A DNA stretch of 64,000 nucleotides from Kofleriaceae bacterium (lineage in GTDB: Bacteria; Myxococcota_A; Polyangia; Haliangiales; Haliangiaceae): contig JAGPCY010000006.1 in NCBI GenBank assembly GCA_018057825.1, forward strand, positions 124,001 through 188,000, in the 5' to 3' direction. Below are positions 2,986 through 27,786 of this stretch, piece after piece. Made by a program: the position numbers and the translations under genes. The notes under the pieces were generated by a model. That model saw only the letters and a program-made list of their open reading frames with translations. It was not told the DNA's origin and made no database searches. Every line of letters begins with the position of its first letter. The stretch's first letter is position 1.

Positions 2986-3900
2986 TCAGCGCGGCGGCTT
3001 GGTCCGGCGGGGCGCGTCGCGGGCCAGGACCGCGAAGCGGCGCGTGGCCAGCGGACCCAGGGCGCGCTGGTAGAACTCGCGCGGTCCGATCCACGCGATC
3101 TCGGTGGTCGGGTGGCGCTCGGCGACGTCGGCCAGGCACGCGATCAGGAGGGCCTCGCCGAGCCCCTGGCCGCGATGTTCGGGCCAGGTCCCGGCCGGGC
3201 CGAACCAGCCCAGGCCACGGTTGTTGCCGTCGTGGGCGGCGAAGGCGGCCAGCCGTCCGCCGCGCTCGGCGACGTGGAGCCCCGACGGCGCGCCGGCCGC
3301 CGCCCGCTCGATCTCGAACGGCCAGGCGCCGCCGAAGCCCAGCGAGATCGCGGCCGACACCGTCGGCAGCTCGGCGGCGCCGGCCCGGCGGATCGTGTAG
3401 CCGCGGGCGGCGCACCGCTCGGCCAGGGCCTCGGCGCGGGCGCGACTGATCCGAGGGTGCTCGCGCAGGTCGACGATCAGGCTCTCGTGCTCGTCGCGGA
3501 GCTGGTAGCCGCGGCGCCCGAGCCAGGCGATCGTGTCGGCGTTCGCGACGTCGACGCCCGGCGCCAGGTAGTTGCCGGGCTCGTCGAGGAGCCGGGCGCG
3601 CCGGTGGGCGCCGGCCCAGATGACCTGCTCACACGCGGTCAGGAGCGCGCTGCCCAGGCCGTGGCCGCGGGCCGCCGGGGTCACCGCCACGAGCCGGACC
3701 CGATCCCCCGAGGCGGCGGCGACCCCGACCAGCTCGCCGCCGGCCCGGGCCGCCAGCGCCGTCGGCTGGCCCCGCGGCGACGGGCCGAGGAGCTTCTCCT
3801 CGGCGACCTCGGCGGCGCGATCGTGGGCGCACGCCGCGGCGAGCACCGCCCGAGCCGCCGGCAGATCGGCCGCCGTCAGCTCGTCGATCGTCGCCGCCAT
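2986..3900 (-). CDS. Tandem GNAT-family acetyltransferase
   Basis: 304 residues containing two GNAT folds. The first half has the acetyl-CoA pyrophosphate loop 'VTPAARGHGLGSALL' (~73-87). The second has 'WPEHRGQGLGEALL' (~234-247), also a R/Q-x-x-G-x-G/A type loop. Tandem GNATs commonly acetylate small molecules or protein N-termini; the substrate here is unknown. A TACCGT box (3907-3912) ends 6 nt before ATG 3900, supporting the start and leaderless expression. The gene is divergent from the kinase at 3978. Confidence 0.84.
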   Translation of the reverse strand: MAATIDELTAADLPAARAVLAAACAHDRAAEVAEEKLLGPSPRGQPTALAARAGGELVGVAAASGDRVRLVAVTPAARGHGLGSALLTACEQVIWAGAHRRARLLDEPGNYLAPGVDVANADTIAWLGRRGYQLRDEHESLIVDLREHPRISRARAEALAERCAARGYTIRRAGAAELPTVSAAISLGFGGAWPFEIERAAAGAPSGLHVAERGGRLAAFAAHDGNNRGLGWFGPAGTWPEHRGQGLGEALLIACLADVAERHPTTEIAWIGPREFYQRALGPLATRRFAVLARDAPRRTKPPR

Positions 3901-3906
3901 CCGAGG

Positions 3907-3912
3907 ACGGTA
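3907..3912 (-). promoter_or_regulatory. -10-like TACCGT upstream of GNAT gene
   Basis: TACCGT on the minus strand ends 6 nt before ATG 3900; leaderless geometry. Confidence 0.35.
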
Positions 3913-3963
3913 TCATCGGTGGCCGCGGGCGCGCGGACAAACCCGACGTGGCCCCGCGCGCCC

Positions 3964-3969
3964 TATACT
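3964..3969 (+). promoter_or_regulatory. -10-like TATACT, decides GTG start of kinase
   Basis: TATACT ends 8 nt before GTG 3978. An ATG at 3948 lies upstream of this box in the same frame, so a transcript starting here would have to use the GTG. Confidence 0.48.
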
Positions 3970-3977
3970 CGCGGGCG

Positions 3978-6565
3978 GTGCCGCCGACCCAGCTCTCGCA
4001 CTACCGGATCGTCGGGCCCCTGGGCCGCGGCGCGATGGGCGAGGTCTATCGCGCGGTCGATCAGCGCCTCGGTCGCGAGGTGGCGCTCAAGATGCTGCCG
4101 CGTGAGGTCGAGGGAGCCGGCGACGGCCAGGCCCGGCTCCTGCGCGAGGCCCAGGCGGTGAGCGCGCTCAACCATCCTGGCATCGTCACGCTCCACGACC
4201 TGGCCACCGTCGACGGTCGGTCGTTCCTGGTGATGGAGCTGGTCGACGGCGAGCCGTGCTCGACCTTGGCGCGGCGCGGCCTGCCGTGGGCGCGCGCGCT
4301 GGCGATCGTCGCCGACGCCGCCGAGGCGCTGGCCGCCGCTCACCGCCTCGGCATCCTCCACCGCGACGTCAAGAGCGACAACCTGATGGTCCGGACCGAT
4401 GGCCAGGTCAAGGTCCTCGACTTCGGCCTGGCCAAGCTGCGCGCGGACCTGGCGGCGCCGATCGGCTCGCCGCTCCCGGTCGCCGAGCCGGCGCTGGCCG
4501 ACGTCAGCTTGGCCGAGACCCTGGTCCCGGCGACGGTGAGCGGCGCCGCGCTGTCGAGCGACCTGACCCAGGCCGGCCACCTCGTCGGCACGCCGGCCTA
4601 CATGGCGCCCGAGTGCTACGACGGCGTCGCCACGCCGGCCAGCGAGGTGTTCGCGCTGGCGGTGGTCGCCTACGAGCTCTTGACCGGTCGGCGGCCGTTC
4701 GATCGCGGCACCGCGGTCGCCACGATGGCGGCGATCCGCCTCGACGAGGCGCTGCCGCCGTCGCGGGTCGCGCCCGACCGCAAGATCCCGGCCTGGGTCG
4801 ACGCCGTGATCCTGCGCGCCCTCGCCAAAGATCCGAATGTCCGGTTTCCGGACATGCCGGCGCTGGCGGCGGCGCTGCGGGCGTCGCCACCACCGCCGCG
4901 GCGACGCTGGCCGGGGGCGGTCGGCGCGGCCGCCCTGGCGCTGGCCGGCGGCGTCGGCTGGTACGCGACCCGCGACCGCGCCGAGCCACCGACGATGACT
5001 GTCACCGCGAGCCGGCGCCTGACGCTCGACCCTGGCTGCGAGGAGTATCCGCGCTTCTCGCCCGACGGCCGTCAGGTCGTCTACGACGGCCTGGTCCACG
5101 ACGACTACGAGATCCTGAGCGTCGACCTCGCCGGCGGCGCGCCGCAGCGGATCACCGATCGCCCCGGCTGGGACTACGCCCCGGCGCTGTCGCCCGACGG
5201 TACCCGCGTCGCGTACGTCCACGAGGCTCCGGACCAGCGGGTGGTGATGGTGCAAGCGGTGGCCGGTGGTCCGGCGGTGCCGCTCGGGCCGATCAGCGGC
5301 TACCCGGCGTGGACCGAGGACGGCGCGCTCTTGGTCGGCGACCCCAGCGGGCGCATCGTCCGCCGCGAGCTGACCGCCGCCGGCGCGATCGCGCGCGAGG
5401 TCGAGCTGGGGCGGCTGCCCTCCGGTGGTCGCGCCTACCACGTCGTGGCGATCGCGGGGGCCGGCGTCGCGGTCCTGTGGTGGACCGCGAGCGACACCGA
5501 GGCCACCGCCCTGGGCGAGCTCGATCTCCGGGGTCGGCTGCGCATCGTCGAGGAGACCCTGACCGACTACGAGGGCGGGCTGGCGGTGGCGGCCGAGCCC
5601 CGGGCCTACTACGTGACCCGCAAGGGCGCGACCACCGGCAACCAGCTCCTCTGGCGACGCTGGGGCGCGCGCGCCGGGGTGATCGTGCCCGGTGGCCTGT
5701 CGCCTCACGCCGGGATCGACGTCTCGCGCGACGGCCGGCGGCTGGTGTTCTCGACCTGCCGCGAGCGGCAATACGTGGCGCGGCTGCGCGCCGGCGCCGC
5801 CCCCGCGGTCCTGTCGCGCGGCGAGTGGCAGGACATGTTCCCGGCCCCGGCCGGCGCCGACGCGGTGGTGGTGACCTCGTCGCGGACCGGGGTCGACCAG
5901 GGCTGGCTGATCGACCTCGCCGGCCGTCCGCCGCGCGCGGTGACCCCGGCGGGGGCGGTCGCGGTCCGCGCCAGCCACGACGGCGCGCTCCTGGCCTACG
6001 CCGCCGACGGTGGACGCGGCGGGGTGGCGGTGGTGCCGCTGGCCCGCGGCGCGCCCCGTCGCCTGACCGACGGGCCGTCGGACGCGGTGCCGACCTTCAC
6101 CTTCGACGATCGCGAGGTCGTGTTCAGCCGCATCGACCCCGACGGGCCGGCGGTCTACGCGGTGCCGGTGAGCGGCGGGCCTGCGCGTCGCTTGTTCGCC
6201 GGCAGCCACCCGGCGACCTCGCCGGTCGCGGCCACGATCGCCGCCCTCGACGCGCCCGATCCCAACGGCGCGCGGGCGATCGTGCTGAGCGAGCCGACCG
6301 GTGCGCCGCGCCCGCTGCCGGGGGCGCCGCGGGCGGCGTGGCTGGCGCCGCGGTTCTCGCCCGACGGGACGCGTCTGGTCGCGGTGCGCGGCTTCCAGGA
6401 GATCGTCGAGCTCACGGTCGACGGCAGCGCGCCGCCGCGGGTGGTGTGGACCGCGGCCACCGACTCGGTGCTGGCGGTCGACTGGATGCCCGACGGCGAC
6501 GGCCTCCTCGCTGCGCTGGCCAACTACGATGGTGACCTGTGGCTGGCCGAGGGGCGGTTCCGCTA

Positions 6566-11112: not shown

Positions 11113-11222
11113 GCCGGCGGGTACAGCAACGGCGATGCCAGGCCGAAGCTCGACGGGCGGGGCCACCGACGCGGCGACGTCGCGAGCGCCTGGGCGAATC
11201 GCGCAACCGCTGGGCAGTTCGC

Positions 11223-12656
11223 TCAGCAGTCCCCGGGCGAGTCCGCGAGGGTCGCGGGTAGCCGCACCGCCTCGCGGTTCACGCCGCCAGCGTCGACGAT
11301 GATGGACTTCACGCACGATCGCTCATCGTCGGCCGTGGCGAACAGGATGTAGAGGCCGGGCACGATGGGCACGTCGTCGAGCGGGGTCCGGCCGAGCGTC
11401 AGGTCGCCACCCGGGCCGAGGACGCGAATGACGGCCGGTTCGCTCGCTGTGATCGCGAGGCGCGCGACCGCGGCGGTCGACGGCGCGGTGGGCGCTGGCG
11501 GGTCCGGGGGCGCCGACGCGTCGGGCCCGGCGTGGCGCCGGTCGCCCCTGTCGCCCACCGCGGCCAGCCCGGCGATCGCCACCGCGGCCAGCCCGGCGAT
11601 CGCCGCGGCGGCGAGCCCGACCGCCCACCGGCGCCGTCCGGCCGCGCGCGTGGGCGTCGCGCGGACCGCGACCTGGGCCGCCCGCGCCGTGGGCGCCGGC
11701 GCCGGCGCGAGCGCCGCGGTCGGCTCGTCGTCGCGCGCGAAGCCGCGATCGCGCTCGGCCATGGCCGCGCCGGCGCGCTCCTCGACCCGGGCGGCCAGGG
11801 CGTCGACCGTCGCCGGCGCGAGCGCGGCGGTCAGGCGCTGCCGGAGCTGGTCGGCGCTGGCCGGGCGGGCGGCGGGATCGACCGCCAGGCAAGCGTGGAG
11901 CGCCGCGGCCACCGCTGGCGGCACGCCACGCTCGACGAGCGCGGGCACGGCGCCGGCGCGGATGGCGTCGATCGCGGCGGCCGGTGGGCCGGCGAACAGC
12001 CGCGCGCCGGTGCACAGCTCCCAGCCGAGCACGCCCAGGGCCCACAGATCGGCGCGGCGATCGAGGCGCGCGCCGGCTAGCTGCTCGGGCGCCATGTAGC
12101 CAAGGGTGCCGCGGGCGGCGCCGGCGCTGCTGACCTCGGCGTGCTCGGGCTTGGCGATGCCGAAGTCGAGGATCTTGACCGCGCCGGCGCTGGTCACCAT
12201 GAGGTTGGTGGCCGACAGATCGCGGTGGATGAAGCCGGCCGGCGCGCCGCGCTCGTCGCGGAGGTCGTGGAGGTGGGCGAGCCCGGCGGCCGCCGCGGTG
12301 ACGATCGCGATCACCTCGGCCGGCGGCAGCGGGCCGCGGTCGCGCAGCTCGGCGACGGTCGCGCCGCGCAGGTACTCCATGGCCAGGAAGTACTCGCCAT
12401 CGGCGTCGCCGAGCTCGTAGACCGTGACCAGGTTGGGATGCGCCAGCCGGGCGGCCAGGCGGGCCTCGCCGAGGAACCGTCGCAGCAGGTCCCAGTCGCC
12501 GGCGTGCTCGGGCCGCACGCGCTTGAGCACCAGGGGCTTGCGGAAGCCGCCGGCCGCCACCAGCTCGGCCGCCCACACCTCGGCCATCCCGCCGCGCCCG
12601 ATCCGCGCGGTGAGCCGGTAGCGGCCGAGTCGGCGCTCGGTCGCGGCGTGCTCCAT
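11223..12656 (-). CDS. Membrane-anchored Ser/Thr protein kinase
   Basis: 477 residues. Kinase domain (~10-275): GRGGMAEVWAAEL loop, LVLKRV lysine, catalytic loop HRDLSATN, DFGIAKPE, GTLGYMAPEQ. The Lys usually found at HRD+2 is Ser, a variant frequent in myxobacterial kinases, with the metal-binding Asn retained. An Ala/Arg-rich linker leads to one TM helix (~347-372) and a ~100-residue extracytoplasmic domain ending in CVKSIIVD...GDC that resembles a PEGA-like beta-sandwich. The start at ATG 12656 is supported by TACCTT 8 nt upstream. It is divergent from the FHA-sigma54 activator 75 bp away, a likely phospho-signalling partner. Confidence 0.92.
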   Translation of the reverse strand: MEHAATERRLGRYRLTARIGRGGMAEVWAAELVAAGGFRKPLVLKRVRPEHAGDWDLLRRFLGEARLAARLAHPNLVTVYELGDADGEYFLAMEYLRGATVAELRDRGPLPPAEVIAIVTAAAAGLAHLHDLRDERGAPAGFIHRDLSATNLMVTSAGAVKILDFGIAKPEHAEVSSAGAARGTLGYMAPEQLAGARLDRRADLWALGVLGWELCTGARLFAGPPAAAIDAIRAGAVPALVERGVPPAVAAALHACLAVDPAARPASADQLRQRLTAALAPATVDALAARVEERAGAAMAERDRGFARDDEPTAALAPAPAPTARAAQVAVRATPTRAAGRRRWAVGLAAAAIAGLAAVAIAGLAAVGDRGDRRHAGPDASAPPDPPAPTAPSTAAVARLAITASEPAVIRVLGPGGDLTLGRTPLDDVPIVPGLYILFATADDERSCVKSIIVDAGGVNREAVRLPATLADSPGDC

Positions 12657-12664
12657 CGCGGCGC

Positions 12665-12670
12665 AAGGTA
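12665..12670 (-). promoter_or_regulatory. -10-like TACCTT for the kinase gene
   Basis: TACCTT on the minus strand ends 8 nt before ATG 12656. It selects this ATG over the upstream frame start at 12722. Confidence 0.45.
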
Positions 12671-12696
12671 GCGGCGGCGCCCGCGCGCGGCAACCG

Positions 12697-12725
12697 TTGA
12701 CAGTCGCGCGGGGTCGCCGCAACGT
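12697..12725 (+). promoter_or_regulatory. Predicted sigma70-type promoter of FHA-sigma54 gene
   Basis: A perfect TTGACA (12697-12702) is followed 17 bp later by CAACGT (12720-12725), 5 nt before ATG 12731. The -10 is weak; the transcript would be leaderless or nearly so. Confidence 0.4.
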
Positions 12726-12730
12726 GCGGC

Positions 12731-14257
<1,527 letters not shown>

Positions 14258-19813: not shown

Positions 19814-21502
19814 CTACGAGCGATCGCGGCCGCCGCGCCCACCCCGCCGCCGGCGCTTGCCGCCGCTGCCGTTGCCGCCGCTCGACGGGGCCCGCGGCGG
19901 TGGGGCGTGGCCCAGCGCGACCGCGGCCTTGGCCTCCTCGGCTGCGATCTCGGTCGACATCTTGCCGGCGACCCGGAACTGATCGGGCTTCCAGCCCTTC
20001 TGCGCCACGACCTCGAGCTGCTTCTGCAGCCGCTTCTCGAGCCCGTCGAGGTACTCGCGCTCGCGGGCGTTGATCAGCTCGGCGACCTTGGGCGAGGCCT
20101 CGATCTGGACCTTGTCGTTGTCGACCGTGGCCCCCGAGCGCCGGACCTCGCGCAGGATCTCGTAGGCCACGGTGGTGGTCGACTTGACGACGCCGGCGCC
20201 CTCGCAGGTCGGACACGGCTCGGTCAGGATCTGCCACAGCGACTCGCGGGTCCGCTTGCGGGTCATCTCGACCAGGCCGAGCTCGCTGATCTTGGTGACG
20301 TTGCAGCGCGCGCGGTCGCGCTTGAGGGCGGCCTGGAACGCGTCCCAGACCTTCTTGCGGTTGCCCTCTTTGTCCATGTCGATGAAGTCGATGACGATGA
20401 TGCCGCCGATGTTGCGCAGCCGGAGCTGGCGGGCGACCTCCTCGCAGGCCTCGAGGTTGTTGAGGGTGACGGTCTCCTCGAGGTTGTTGTTCGATCCGGT
20501 GAAGCTGCCGGTGTTGACGTCGATCGCGGTCAGGGCCTCGCCCTGATCGATCACCAGCGAGCCGCCCGAGCGCAGCGGCACCTTGCGCGCCACCGCGACC
20601 CGCAAGGCCGGCTCGATGTTGAAGTGATCGAAGATCGGCCGGCGGCCCTCGTAGCGCTTGATGCGCGGCGCGTAGCGCGGCAGGAAGGTCTCGGTGAAGC
20701 GCTTGACCCGGGCGTACTGCTCCTCGTCGTCGATGTGGACCTCGGTGGTGTCCTCGCGGACCAGGTCGCGCACCAGGCGCAGCGGCAGATCGAGCTCGGG
20801 GTAGATGAGCCCGGCGCCCTTGACCGCGTCCTCGCGCCGGCCGATCTCGGACCACAGCCGGGTCAGGTACTCGACGTCGTCCTTGATCTCCTGCTCGACG
20901 GTGTCCTCGGCGGCGGTCCGGATGATGAACCCGCCCTTGGCCGGCCGGCTCTTGGCGATGATGTCGCGCAGCCGCTTGCGCTCCTTGTCGGAGGCGATGC
21001 GGCGCGACACGCCGATCTGGTGGACCGCCGGCATGTAGACGCTGTAGCGGCCGGGCAGGGACAGGTAGCCGGTGACCCGGGCGCCCTTCTGGGCGATCGG
21101 ATCCTTCACCACCTGGCACAGCACCTCGTTGCCGGGCTTCAGCAGATCTTCGATCTTGCGCGCCGCCAGGCTCTTCTTGGTGCGAGCGATCCGCGACGCT
21201 GCGCCTTCGGGCGCCTCGTCGGCGTCCTCGACGTCGGCGTCCTCGAACAGCTTCTTGCCGTCGTCGGCGCCCATGACGTCGCCCACGAACAGGAAGGCGG
21301 CGCGCTCGACCTTGGGGCCGAGGTCGACGAAGGCGGCCTGCATGCCGGGCAAGACCCGCGTGACCTTGCCGCGGTAGATGTTGCCGACCATGCCGCGGTC
21401 GCGCTTGCGCTCGACGTAGAGCTCGGCGAGCGCGCCCTCCTCCACCACCGCGACCCGGCACTCCGGGCCCTCGGCGTTAACCACGAGGATGTTCTGTGCC
21501 AT
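19814..21502 (-). CDS. rng: Ribonuclease G/E family endoribonuclease
   Basis: 562 residues; MAQNILVVNAEG at ATG 21502 is preferred over an upstream in-frame ATG at 21646. S1-like RNA-binding domain ~35-130 (GNIYRGKVTRVLPGMQAAFVDLG), with an acidic insertion (FEDADVEDADEAPEG). The catalytic DNase I-like core holds the two Mg-binding aspartates in AIDVNTGSF and IIVIDFIDM, and the Zn-link CPTCEGAG lies around residue 420. The C-terminal basic Gly/Arg tail (GKRRRRGGRGGRDRS) probably binds RNA. It cleaves single-stranded RNA in rRNA maturation and mRNA turnover. There is no long RNase E scaffold, so RNase G-like. The divergent 577-bp upstream region contains hairpins that could mediate feedback, as known for the E. 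coli rne leader. Confidence 0.93.
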   Translation of the reverse strand: MAQNILVVNAEGPECRVAVVEEGALAELYVERKRDRGMVGNIYRGKVTRVLPGMQAAFVDLGPKVERAAFLFVGDVMGADDGKKLFEDADVEDADEAPEGAASRIARTKKSLAARKIEDLLKPGNEVLCQVVKDPIAQKGARVTGYLSLPGRYSVYMPAVHQIGVSRRIASDKERKRLRDIIAKSRPAKGGFIIRTAAEDTVEQEIKDDVEYLTRLWSEIGRREDAVKGAGLIYPELDLPLRLVRDLVREDTTEVHIDDEEQYARVKRFTETFLPRYAPRIKRYEGRRPIFDHFNIEPALRVAVARKVPLRSGGSLVIDQGEALTAIDVNTGSFTGSNNNLEETVTLNNLEACEEVARQLRLRNIGGIIVIDFIDMDKEGNRKKVWDAFQAALKRDRARCNVTKISELGLVEMTRKRTRESLWQILTEPCPTCEGAGVVKSTTTVAYEILREVRRSGATVDNDKVQIEASPKVAELINAREREYLDGLEKRLQKQLEVVAQKGWKPDQFRVAGKMSTEIAAEEAKAAVALGHAPPPRAPSSGGNGSGGKRRRRGGRGGRDRS

Positions 21503-21603
21503 TCGATAGCCTGTGCGAATCGGTTGCAACCCGACTGGCCGCCCTGACACGGATGTCGTGACGAGGGAGCGGTCGTAGCGGGTACGTGGGGCCTCGCGTA
21601 ACA

Positions 21604-21632
21604 CGCAATTCCCATGAATACAAGGGATTGCG
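21604..21632 (-). promoter_or_regulatory. Hairpin in the rng upstream region
   Basis: CGCAATTCCC (21604-21613) pairs with GGGATTGCG (21624-21632) with one bulged base and a 10-nt loop. On the minus strand it would sit ~100 nt ahead of the rng start if transcription begins further upstream. Confidence 0.4.
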
Positions 21633-21781
21633 AACGGGCTCGCCACTTTGGCGCGGACCTTGCTCAGCTCTTGGACATCCTGGCGGGGTGCCGCCCACCA
21701 GGGGTCGTTAGCTAGCTTAGTCTGCGCTCGGTCCGCTTGACCTTATACCTTACGTAACTTAGTGCTTTCGCTGGTTTGTTG

Positions 21782-21818
21782 GAGGCCCTCGGCATATCCC
21801 CGAGGGCCTCTGGCTTTT
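21782..21818 (+). terminator. Rho-independent terminator-like hairpin without a known upstream gene
   Basis: Perfect 11-bp stem GAGGCCCTCGG (21782-21792) / CCGAGGGCCTC (21800-21810), 7-nt loop, then TGG-C-TTTT. The T-run is short. On the plus strand nothing annotated ends here; on the minus strand no T-run follows. Confidence 0.5.
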
Positions 21819-21934
21819 CGGGTTCGGACGTCGGGGTTCGGTCTTTGGGGGCGGAGGCGGGTTCGGAGGTGGACGGCAGGACGGGTGCTGGGAGAATCGA
21901 CCGGACGGGGCAACTCTTGAGACAGCCGCCCCCT

Positions 21935-21988
21935 GGGGATCGTTGCACCCGAGGGGATCGTTGCACCCGAGGGGATCGTTGCACTGGA
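21935..21988 (+). repeat. Three 18-bp direct repeats upstream of ThrE-type gene
   Basis: GGGGATCGTTGCACCCGA at 21935-21952 and 21953-21970, and a third copy with changes at its end at 21971-21988. It lies ~90 bp before GTG 22080 and could be an operator. Confidence 0.85.
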
Positions 21989-22079: not shown

Positions 22080-23360
22080 GTGGCTGACCGCGCCGACCCC
22101 ACCGACCGCGTCCGCCGGGCCGCCGCCACCGACCAGCTCCCCCTGGCCGAGCGCGAGCGCATCGAGCGCGCCCGCATCCGGTTCGTGCTCGCCCTCGGTC
22201 GGGCGCTCCACACCTACGGCACCCCGGCTCACCGCCTCGAGGAGGCCCTGGCCCTGGTGTGCAAGCGGCTCGGCCTGCGCGCCGAGATCATGTCGACCCC
22301 GACCTCGCTGACGATCGGGTTCGGCGACCCGGCCGACCTCAAGAGCGCGCTCATGCGGGTCCACGCCGCCGAGCTCGATCTGGGCAAGCTGGCCCAGCTC
22401 GACGCCCTGGCCGACGCGGTCGTGGCCCGCGAGATCGACTCGGAGGAGGCGCTGCATCAGATCGAGGCCATCGTCGCCGCGCCGCCGACCTGGGGACGGG
22501 CCCCCGAGACCGCGACCTACGCGCTGACCGCGGCGGCGATCGCGGTGTTCTTCGGCGGCGGCGGGCGCGACGTCGGGGCGGCGGCCGCGGTCGGCCTGGT
22601 GATCGGCGGCCTGGTCCTGGTCATGCGCCGGCGCGCTCACGCCCGGCGCGCGATCGAGCTGGTCGGCGGCTTCGTCGCGGCCTTCCTGGCCCAGGCCGCG
22701 GGCGCGCTGGTCGACGGCATCGCGCCGTCGGTGGTCACGATCGGCGCGCTGATCGCGCTCCTGCCCGGGCTGACGCTCACCACCGCGATGACCGAGCTGG
22801 CGACCCGCAACCTGGTGTCGGGCACCGCGCGTCTCATGTCGGCCCTGATCGTGCTCCTCGAGCTGGCCTTGGGCGTGGCCCTGGGCGAGCGGTTGGCCGG
22901 CGCGCTCTGGCAGCTCGCGCCCCACGCCCCGGTCGGGCTCCCGGCCTGGACCGAGTGGTTGGCGTTCGTCGCCGGCAGCCTCGGGATGGTGGTCGTCTGC
23001 CAGGCCGAGCGCCGCGCCACCGGCTGGATCCTCGGGACCTCGCTCGTGGCCTACGCCGCCTCGAACTACGGGGCCGACCTCCTGGGCGCCGATCTCGGCG
23101 TCCTGGTCGGCGCGCTGGCCCTCGGCATCGCCGCCAACCTCTACGCCCGGGTCCTCGATCGCCCGCAGCAGGTGGTGCTGGTGCCGGCGGTGATCCTGCT
23201 CGTGCCCGGCAGCATGGGCTTCCGCGGCATCTCGTCCTTGCTCGATCGCAACACGTTGTCCGGCATCGAGACCACCTTCGCGACCTTCGTGGTGGCGATG
23301 GCGATCGTCGCCGGGCTGCTGATCGCCAACGCCCTGGTGTCGCCGCGCCGCGTGCTGTGA
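22080..23360 (+). CDS. Threonine/serine exporter (ThrE) family membrane protein
   Basis: 426 residues. An N-terminal cytosolic segment has the DUF1212/ThrE signature LGRALHTYGTPAHRLEEAL (~38-56) and 'TSLTIGFGDP', followed by about nine or ten TM helices covering the fused DUF1212 and DUF3815 halves (VDGIAPSVVTIGALIALLPG; AANLYARVLDRP...VPAVILLVPGSMGFRG). Corynebacterium ThrE exports Thr/Ser in exchange for protons; the fused single-chain form is common. GTG 22080 has TATTCC 7 nt upstream, the same box as before obg. Three 18-bp repeats upstream suggest regulation by a DNA-binding protein. Confidence 0.87.
   Translation: MADRADPTDRVRRAAATDQLPLAERERIERARIRFVLALGRALHTYGTPAHRLEEALALVCKRLGLRAEIMSTPTSLTIGFGDPADLKSALMRVHAAELDLGKLAQLDALADAVVAREIDSEEALHQIEAIVAAPPTWGRAPETATYALTAAAIAVFFGGGGRDVGAAAAVGLVIGGLVLVMRRRAHARRAIELVGGFVAAFLAQAAGALVDGIAPSVVTIGALIALLPGLTLTTAMTELATRNLVSGTARLMSALIVLLELALGVALGERLAGALWQLAPHAPVGLPAWTEWLAFVAGSLGMVVVCQAERRATGWILGTSLVAYAASNYGADLLGADLGVLVGALALGIAANLYARVLDRPQQVVLVPAVILLVPGSMGFRGISSLLDRNTLSGIETTFATFVVAMAIVAGLLIANALVSPRRVL

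Positions 23361-25950: not shown

Positions 25951-27786
<1,836 letters not shown>

Follow-up and report, generated by a model that had tools for sequence, protein, structure and literature searches.

A predicted sigma-54-dependent small RNA gene divergent from rng in a Kofleriaceae bacterium

We identified a candidate small RNA gene in the window (the whole 64,000-nucleotide stretch of DNA that was analysed), lying next to rng and directed away from it. An orphan terminator upstream of rng very probably ends a stand-alone small RNA gene on the plus strand with its own sigma-54 promoter; we place the probability of this reading at about 0.83. The gene is most likely one that had not previously been catalogued, and its place, promoter and fold appear to have been kept in many relatives. 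As predicted, it is of a known kind, the sigma-54-dependent small RNAs such as Pxr and GlmY: it has a -24/-12 promoter with an upstream activator site and, as far as sequence alone can tell, the form of a stand-alone short RNA with an intrinsic terminator. The coordinates of the features are collected in Table 1.

To our knowledge, the small RNAs studied so far in the Myxococcota are few, with Pxr foremost among them. If the prediction is correct, it adds another sigma-54-controlled small RNA, one that lies beside the gene of an RNA-decay endonuclease and occurs in several families of a class other than that of Pxr. With its promoter, activator site, loop and partner gene all defined, the prediction is directly testable. 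The combination of a conserved promoter with a fast-changing body would also make it a useful case for the evolution of small RNA genes.

Table 1. Features of the rng-ThrE region, in window positions
Feature	Position	Strand	Remarks
rng, ribonuclease E/G, conserved divergent neighbour	19814..21502	-	PF10150, E 5.9e-101
Palindromic activator (enhancer-binding protein) site, predicted	21545..21560	+	TGACACGGATGTCGTG; centre ~-122 of predicted start
Inferred sigma-70-type rng promoter	21595..21623	-	-35 TTGTAT 21623-21618; TG-extended -10 TACGCG 21600-21595
Bulged hairpin	21605..21631	.	arms 21605-21613 / 21624-21631; overlaps inferred rng spacer and -35
Sigma-54 promoter (-24/-12)	21649..21664	+	TGGCGCG-N4-TTGCT; ~130 bases before terminator
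Predicted small RNA, ~144 nt	21675..21818	+	start inferred 12 nt after the C of the -12; end at the U-run
5' hairpin SL1	21679..21702	+	hexaloop GUGCCG
UUAG-rich linker	21709..21727	+	UAGCUAGCUUAGUCUGCGC; same 19 nt in 6/6 same-genus loci
Rho-independent terminator	21778..21818	+	15-bp stem 21778-21814 (including G-U pairs), then UUUU
Perfect 11-bp inverted repeat	21782-21792 / 21800-21810	+	
ThrE-family threonine/serine exporter gene, downstream	22080..23360	+	PF06738, E 2.4e-61

Terminator, promoter and activator site

The first-pass annotation of this region had described a perfect 11-bp terminator-like hairpin on the plus strand with no gene leading into it, and both parts of this description hold. 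The inverted repeat is the core of the 15-bp stem, and the bases right after the stem are TTTTCGG. None of the plus-strand open reading frames that lead into the terminator is a plausible protein gene; those listed nearby are mechanical, and the long one is antisense to rng. The site is absent from the output of a terminator scan because the rule of that scan requires at least five T in eight and the tail reads TTTTCGGG. On the plus strand, positions 21600-21822 folded better than 200 of 200 dinucleotide shuffles (z -4.31).

The sigma-54 promoter is a rare sequence in the window. A strict pattern, TGGCNCG-N4-TTGCW, matched only at 21649 when both strands were searched, and a looser sigma-54 form gave one further match, at 11140 on the minus strand. 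The palindrome of the activator site, written as TGACA-N3-ATGTC[AG], likewise matched the window only at 21545. The TGACAYNNATGTCR pattern had one match in the organism's own genome, as did its reversed-pattern control.

The same arrangement was found throughout the family. An rng match at the cut-off was obtained in 25 of the 30 family genomes, and all 25 loci have GACA-N4-TGTC followed by TGGC-N7-TTGC, pointing away from rng. The distance from the palindrome to the sigma-54 site is 99-103 nt in 24 of these loci and 114 nt in the remaining one. Matrices built from these 25 loci, which themselves score 26.9-46.9, were used to scan 173 rng-upstream regions, and 44 of these scored above 22.7. 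A Markov null of 516 sequences reached at most 22.6, and the reverse strand had a 99th percentile of 22.4 and a maximum of 23.4, which makes the weakest rows uncertain and puts L062 (23.1) inside the control range. The 44 comprise 25/25 family loci, 7/80 from the named genome collection, 8/8 fetched by pattern and 4/60 fetched by rng only, the last group being divided between the class (3/40; L186, L191 and L201) and organisms outside it (1/20; L222, weak).

The pair of activator site and sigma-54 promoter, divergent from rng, also occurs in six other families, at eight of 13 pattern loci fetched from outside the family; the other five (L177-L181) had no rng match. The eight (L168-L174 and L176) were fetched by their promoter pattern and show occurrence, not frequency, and the sampling by rng match hardly covered families f12, f14 and f26, for which no absence is claimed. 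A terminator-like hairpin followed in 36 of the 44 promoter-bearing rng loci vs 16 of 126 rng loci lacking the promoter. These counts come from a simple rule applied to the 420 nt after the inferred start, which at a few loci picked another hairpin, and the 36 include non-obvious terminators (for example at L040, L171, L172 and L176); the rule detected no such hairpin at eight of the 44.

The palindrome itself is probably a general activator motif in the class, given how common the pair is elsewhere: GACA-N4-TGTC stands 75-105 nt before a sigma-54 site in 96 of 289 class genomes, where some copies precede protein genes. A reversed-pattern control gave six matches in five of the 289 genomes. 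The organism's own genome encodes sigma-54 and has 91 activator-domain matches, 81 of them strong, in a domain family that also matches other AAA proteins. No match to Hfq was found in this genome.

Fold and conservation of the predicted RNA

The best-conserved elements of the region are the promoter elements, the loop of the 5' hairpin and the terminator. A hairpin that carries an nUGCCG hexaloop and forms five or more of eight stem pairs was found at 16 of the 25 family loci and, as so defined, is missing from the other nine. At seven stem positions of SL1, 102 of 112 cells pair, vs 67 +/- 4.7 when the 3' arms are swapped between loci, a value reached by none of 1000 swaps; the 16 loci had been preselected for at least five of eight pairs and are thereby favoured over the swaps.

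Covariation was examined in an alignment of 13 of the 25 family transcripts, picked for clear ends and structure, so that its covariation leans towards the model. Compensatory changes on both sides were seen at all seven stem pairs of SL1, and UGCCG is invariant. The whole structure has 30 cells with both-side changes, a number not reached in 500 shuffles and falling to 1-5 when the partners were slid by 1-3 columns. Neither the number of paired cells nor the covariation score was reached in 500 shuffles. Weaker measures were reached more often, the number of pairs with a both-side change by 3 of 500 shuffles and that of further pair types by 58 of 500.

A covariance model gave 18 matches in 56 genomes, one in each genome and all beside rng; 13 of these are the training genomes and five are genomes outside the training set. 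The match in the window (C32:145677-145818, window positions 21677-21818) is a training sequence. Seven of the 25 family genomes in which rng was located are missed by the model, and at E 0.01 it has no match in the 26 genomes from outside the family. The likeness between families appears to lie at the level of the promoter, with transcript matches confined to the family at this threshold. When the 56 relatives were searched with the DNA itself, 46 genomes had a match at E up to 1. Apart from the organism's own genome, those with E below 0.001 fell only in G002-G006 and G011, all at the rng locus, and the rest are noise. Rfam 15 had no match at gathering score in the window and 20 related loci, and two matches from a relaxed search (E 2.3 and 3.9) were taken as chance.

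The predicted transcripts fold better than their shuffles (mean z -3.3, n=21). Removal of the last 45 nt brings the mean z to -0.96, which means that the terminator accounts for much of this signal. Between the hairpin and the terminator, TAG.TTAG occurs in 12 of 38 transcripts vs 0.33 expected. Counts over 39 loci leave out the repeat rows L057, L058, L061 and L080 as well as L222, which has a poor -12, and counts over 38 transcripts additionally leave out L060. A peptide-coding role for the transcript was rejected: frames of at least 12 codons, with ATG or GTG starts, occur in 10 of the 25 transcripts, and the sole recurring frames (L038/L042/L053 and L038/L042/L048) run through shared hairpins.

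A separate motif was noticed in transcripts from outside the family. CTCCTCC, which resembles an anti-Shine-Dalgarno sequence and could pair with Shine-Dalgarno sequences, occurs in eight of these 14 transcripts (L060, L062, L170, L171, L176, L186, L191 and L201) vs 0.26 expected, and in none of the 25 family transcripts.

Neighbouring genes and alternative readings

The gene after the terminator encodes a ThrE-family exporter, and the sigma-54 transcript might be its 5' leader, carrying an attenuator or riboswitch that controls it. A ThrE gene on the same strand is present downstream at 17 of the 25 family loci, at several of them only tens of bases past the terminator. Within the available sequence (some contigs, such as those of L050 and L174, are short) no ThrE gene was found at eight of the 25 family loci or at any of the 14 other loci, and there the promoter and the linkage to rng remain. 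The next recognisable gene is convergent at L039 and L045 (HD-domain), L044 (TPR), L170 (MopE/kelch) and L172 (subtilase). At L040, L052 and L169 the next gene is unrelated and runs in the direction of the transcript, which could act as a leader there; at the remaining loci examined the downstream gene was unrecognised. In several relatives a TA-rich, -10-like motif was seen by eye just before the ThrE start, which suggests that this gene may have its own promoter. Since the gene after the terminator differs between loci and faces the terminator at no fewer than five of them, we consider a leader role improbable. Three tandem 19-nt repeats of the CCCGAGGGGATCGTTGCAC type, spaced at 18 nt, lie at 21930-21984 between the terminator and the ThrE gene.

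Two options had been offered in the first-pass annotation, a plus-strand small RNA ending near 21818 and a structured leader of the rng mRNA serving feedback, and our results separate them. The former is supported by the conserved sigma-54 promoter and activator site, the conserved terminator, the covariation and the covariance model, whose 18 matches all fall at this locus. The latter takes its appeal from the position of the region upstream of rng and from a precedent, the E. coli rne 5' leader, which is a structured RNA adjoining a gene of the RNase E/G type. Unlike that leader, the predicted RNA is on the opposite strand and has its own promoter and terminator. On the minus strand, positions 21503-21760 do fold somewhat better than shuffles (z -2.78), a value matched by one of 200. 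The bulged hairpin reported earlier upstream of rng also exists, and all eight of the tested pairs form in the window; seven of eight form at L032, the locus of a close relative, and one to six at the other 30 loci compared. These pairs are not conserved, they overlap the strictly spaced rng promoter that we infer, and the inferred leaders fold about as well as their shuffles do (mean z -0.83, n=23). No conserved structure was found in the rng 5' UTR, as delimited by the inferred leader start, and the terminator and sigma-54 elements are directed away from rng. A feedback leader is therefore very improbable.

The putative rng promoter is suggested by its geometry. TA.CA-N16-[AT]CAA, with a gap of 19, occurs at 32 of 39 loci, and each other gap from 14 to 24 occurs at no more than one locus. 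Read on the minus strand, this fixed pair is probably a -35 TTGW followed, after 17 bp, by a TG-extended -10, and would be the promoter of rng; in the window the spacer is 17 bp and the start would be near 21588. A site for integration host factor had been considered for the conserved ACAAGG.ATTG and was dropped in favour of the rng promoter because its 19-nt gap to the TA is fixed.

On the least probable reading, promoter and terminator are leftovers or arose by chance, and no transcript belongs to the hairpin; the case for a small RNA is drawn from sequence, and against this reading stand the conservation seen between genera and between families, the compensatory changes and the rng synteny, which together leave it scant room.

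For the sigma-54 small RNA that we prefer, the arrangement of the sites suggests a mechanism. An NtrC-type enhancer-binding protein at the activator site would loop the DNA over the putative rng promoter, which separates the activator site from that of the small RNA, and sigma-54 RNA polymerase would then make a plus-strand transcript of about 21675-21818. The RNA would fold into a 5' hairpin that presents the nUGCCG hexaloop, a single-stranded UUAG-rich linker and the Rho-independent terminator, and it would most likely act in trans, with the exposed loop or linker providing the base pairing and without Hfq. A single compact divergent regulatory region would serve both this gene and rng. As a pairing target of the predicted RNA, rng is not favoured: by a crude full-length duplex energy, 13 of 20 transcripts paired better with the rng leader of their own locus than with swapped partners on average, with ranks from 1 to 20, which is no clear advantage.

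Counted from the inferred rng start, the activator site would span about +29 to +44, and the rng core promoter would lie within the looped DNA, so that activation of the small RNA could lower RNase E/G. A two-way switch, in which one enhancer-binding protein fires the small RNA and lowers RNase E/G and the linker is the meeting point of the RNA with RNase E/G, is a speculative extension that we regard as doubtful; if true, it would tie sigma-54 signalling to RNA decay.

Comparison with known small RNAs

Two papers describe Pxr of Myxococcus as a small RNA with a 108-nt coding region, a predicted sigma-54 promoter and three predicted stem-loops, of which the loop of the first is functionally critical, in a host without Hfq (PMC5568312, PMC5684412). 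In the same papers, pxr is flanked on one side by the response-regulator gene nla19/pxrR (Mxan_1078) and on the other by pxrA / a predicted NADH dehydrogenase gene, and it is said to have arisen at the base of the Cystobacterineae (PMC5568312, PMC5684412). The RNA predicted here resembles Pxr in being a myxobacterial small RNA with a predicted sigma-54 promoter and a 5' stem-loop in an Hfq-less host. Unlike Pxr, it is divergent from rng and has its activator site beyond the rng promoter. Its neighbours are rng and the ThrE gene and not those given for pxr, which sets the two genes apart by location.

GlmY of the Enterobacteriaceae is a small RNA whose sigma-54 promoter is fired by the enhancer-binding protein QseF at upstream activating sites (PMC6075780). 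The predicted gene resembles it in being a small RNA gene with a sigma-54 promoter and a predicted enhancer-binding protein site, and differs from it in organism and neighbours. The sites of QseF/GlrR have the arrangement TGTC-N10-GACA, which differs from the GACA-N4-TGTC found before the predicted small RNA. Among the matches listed from the open-licence literature, none dealt with a small RNA adjacent to rng in these bacteria.

Further features of the window and its relatives were noted. ARAGORN called a tRNA-Ala (GGC) at 27566-27653, inside a long minus-strand frame (25951-27786) that appears subtilase-like by eye, and this call is probably false. At L169, in a genome of the same order, the gene after the small RNA (3518-5641) encodes a sigma-54 enhancer-binding protein (PF00158, with a Fis-type HTH) and is a candidate regulator. 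The window itself has, at 11223-14257, a Ser/Thr protein kinase gene on the minus strand that is divergent from the gene of an FHA-type sigma-54 enhancer-binding protein on the plus strand (12731-14257). The FHA domain and the kinase were identified by eye, and the pair lies about 8 kb from the predicted small RNA.
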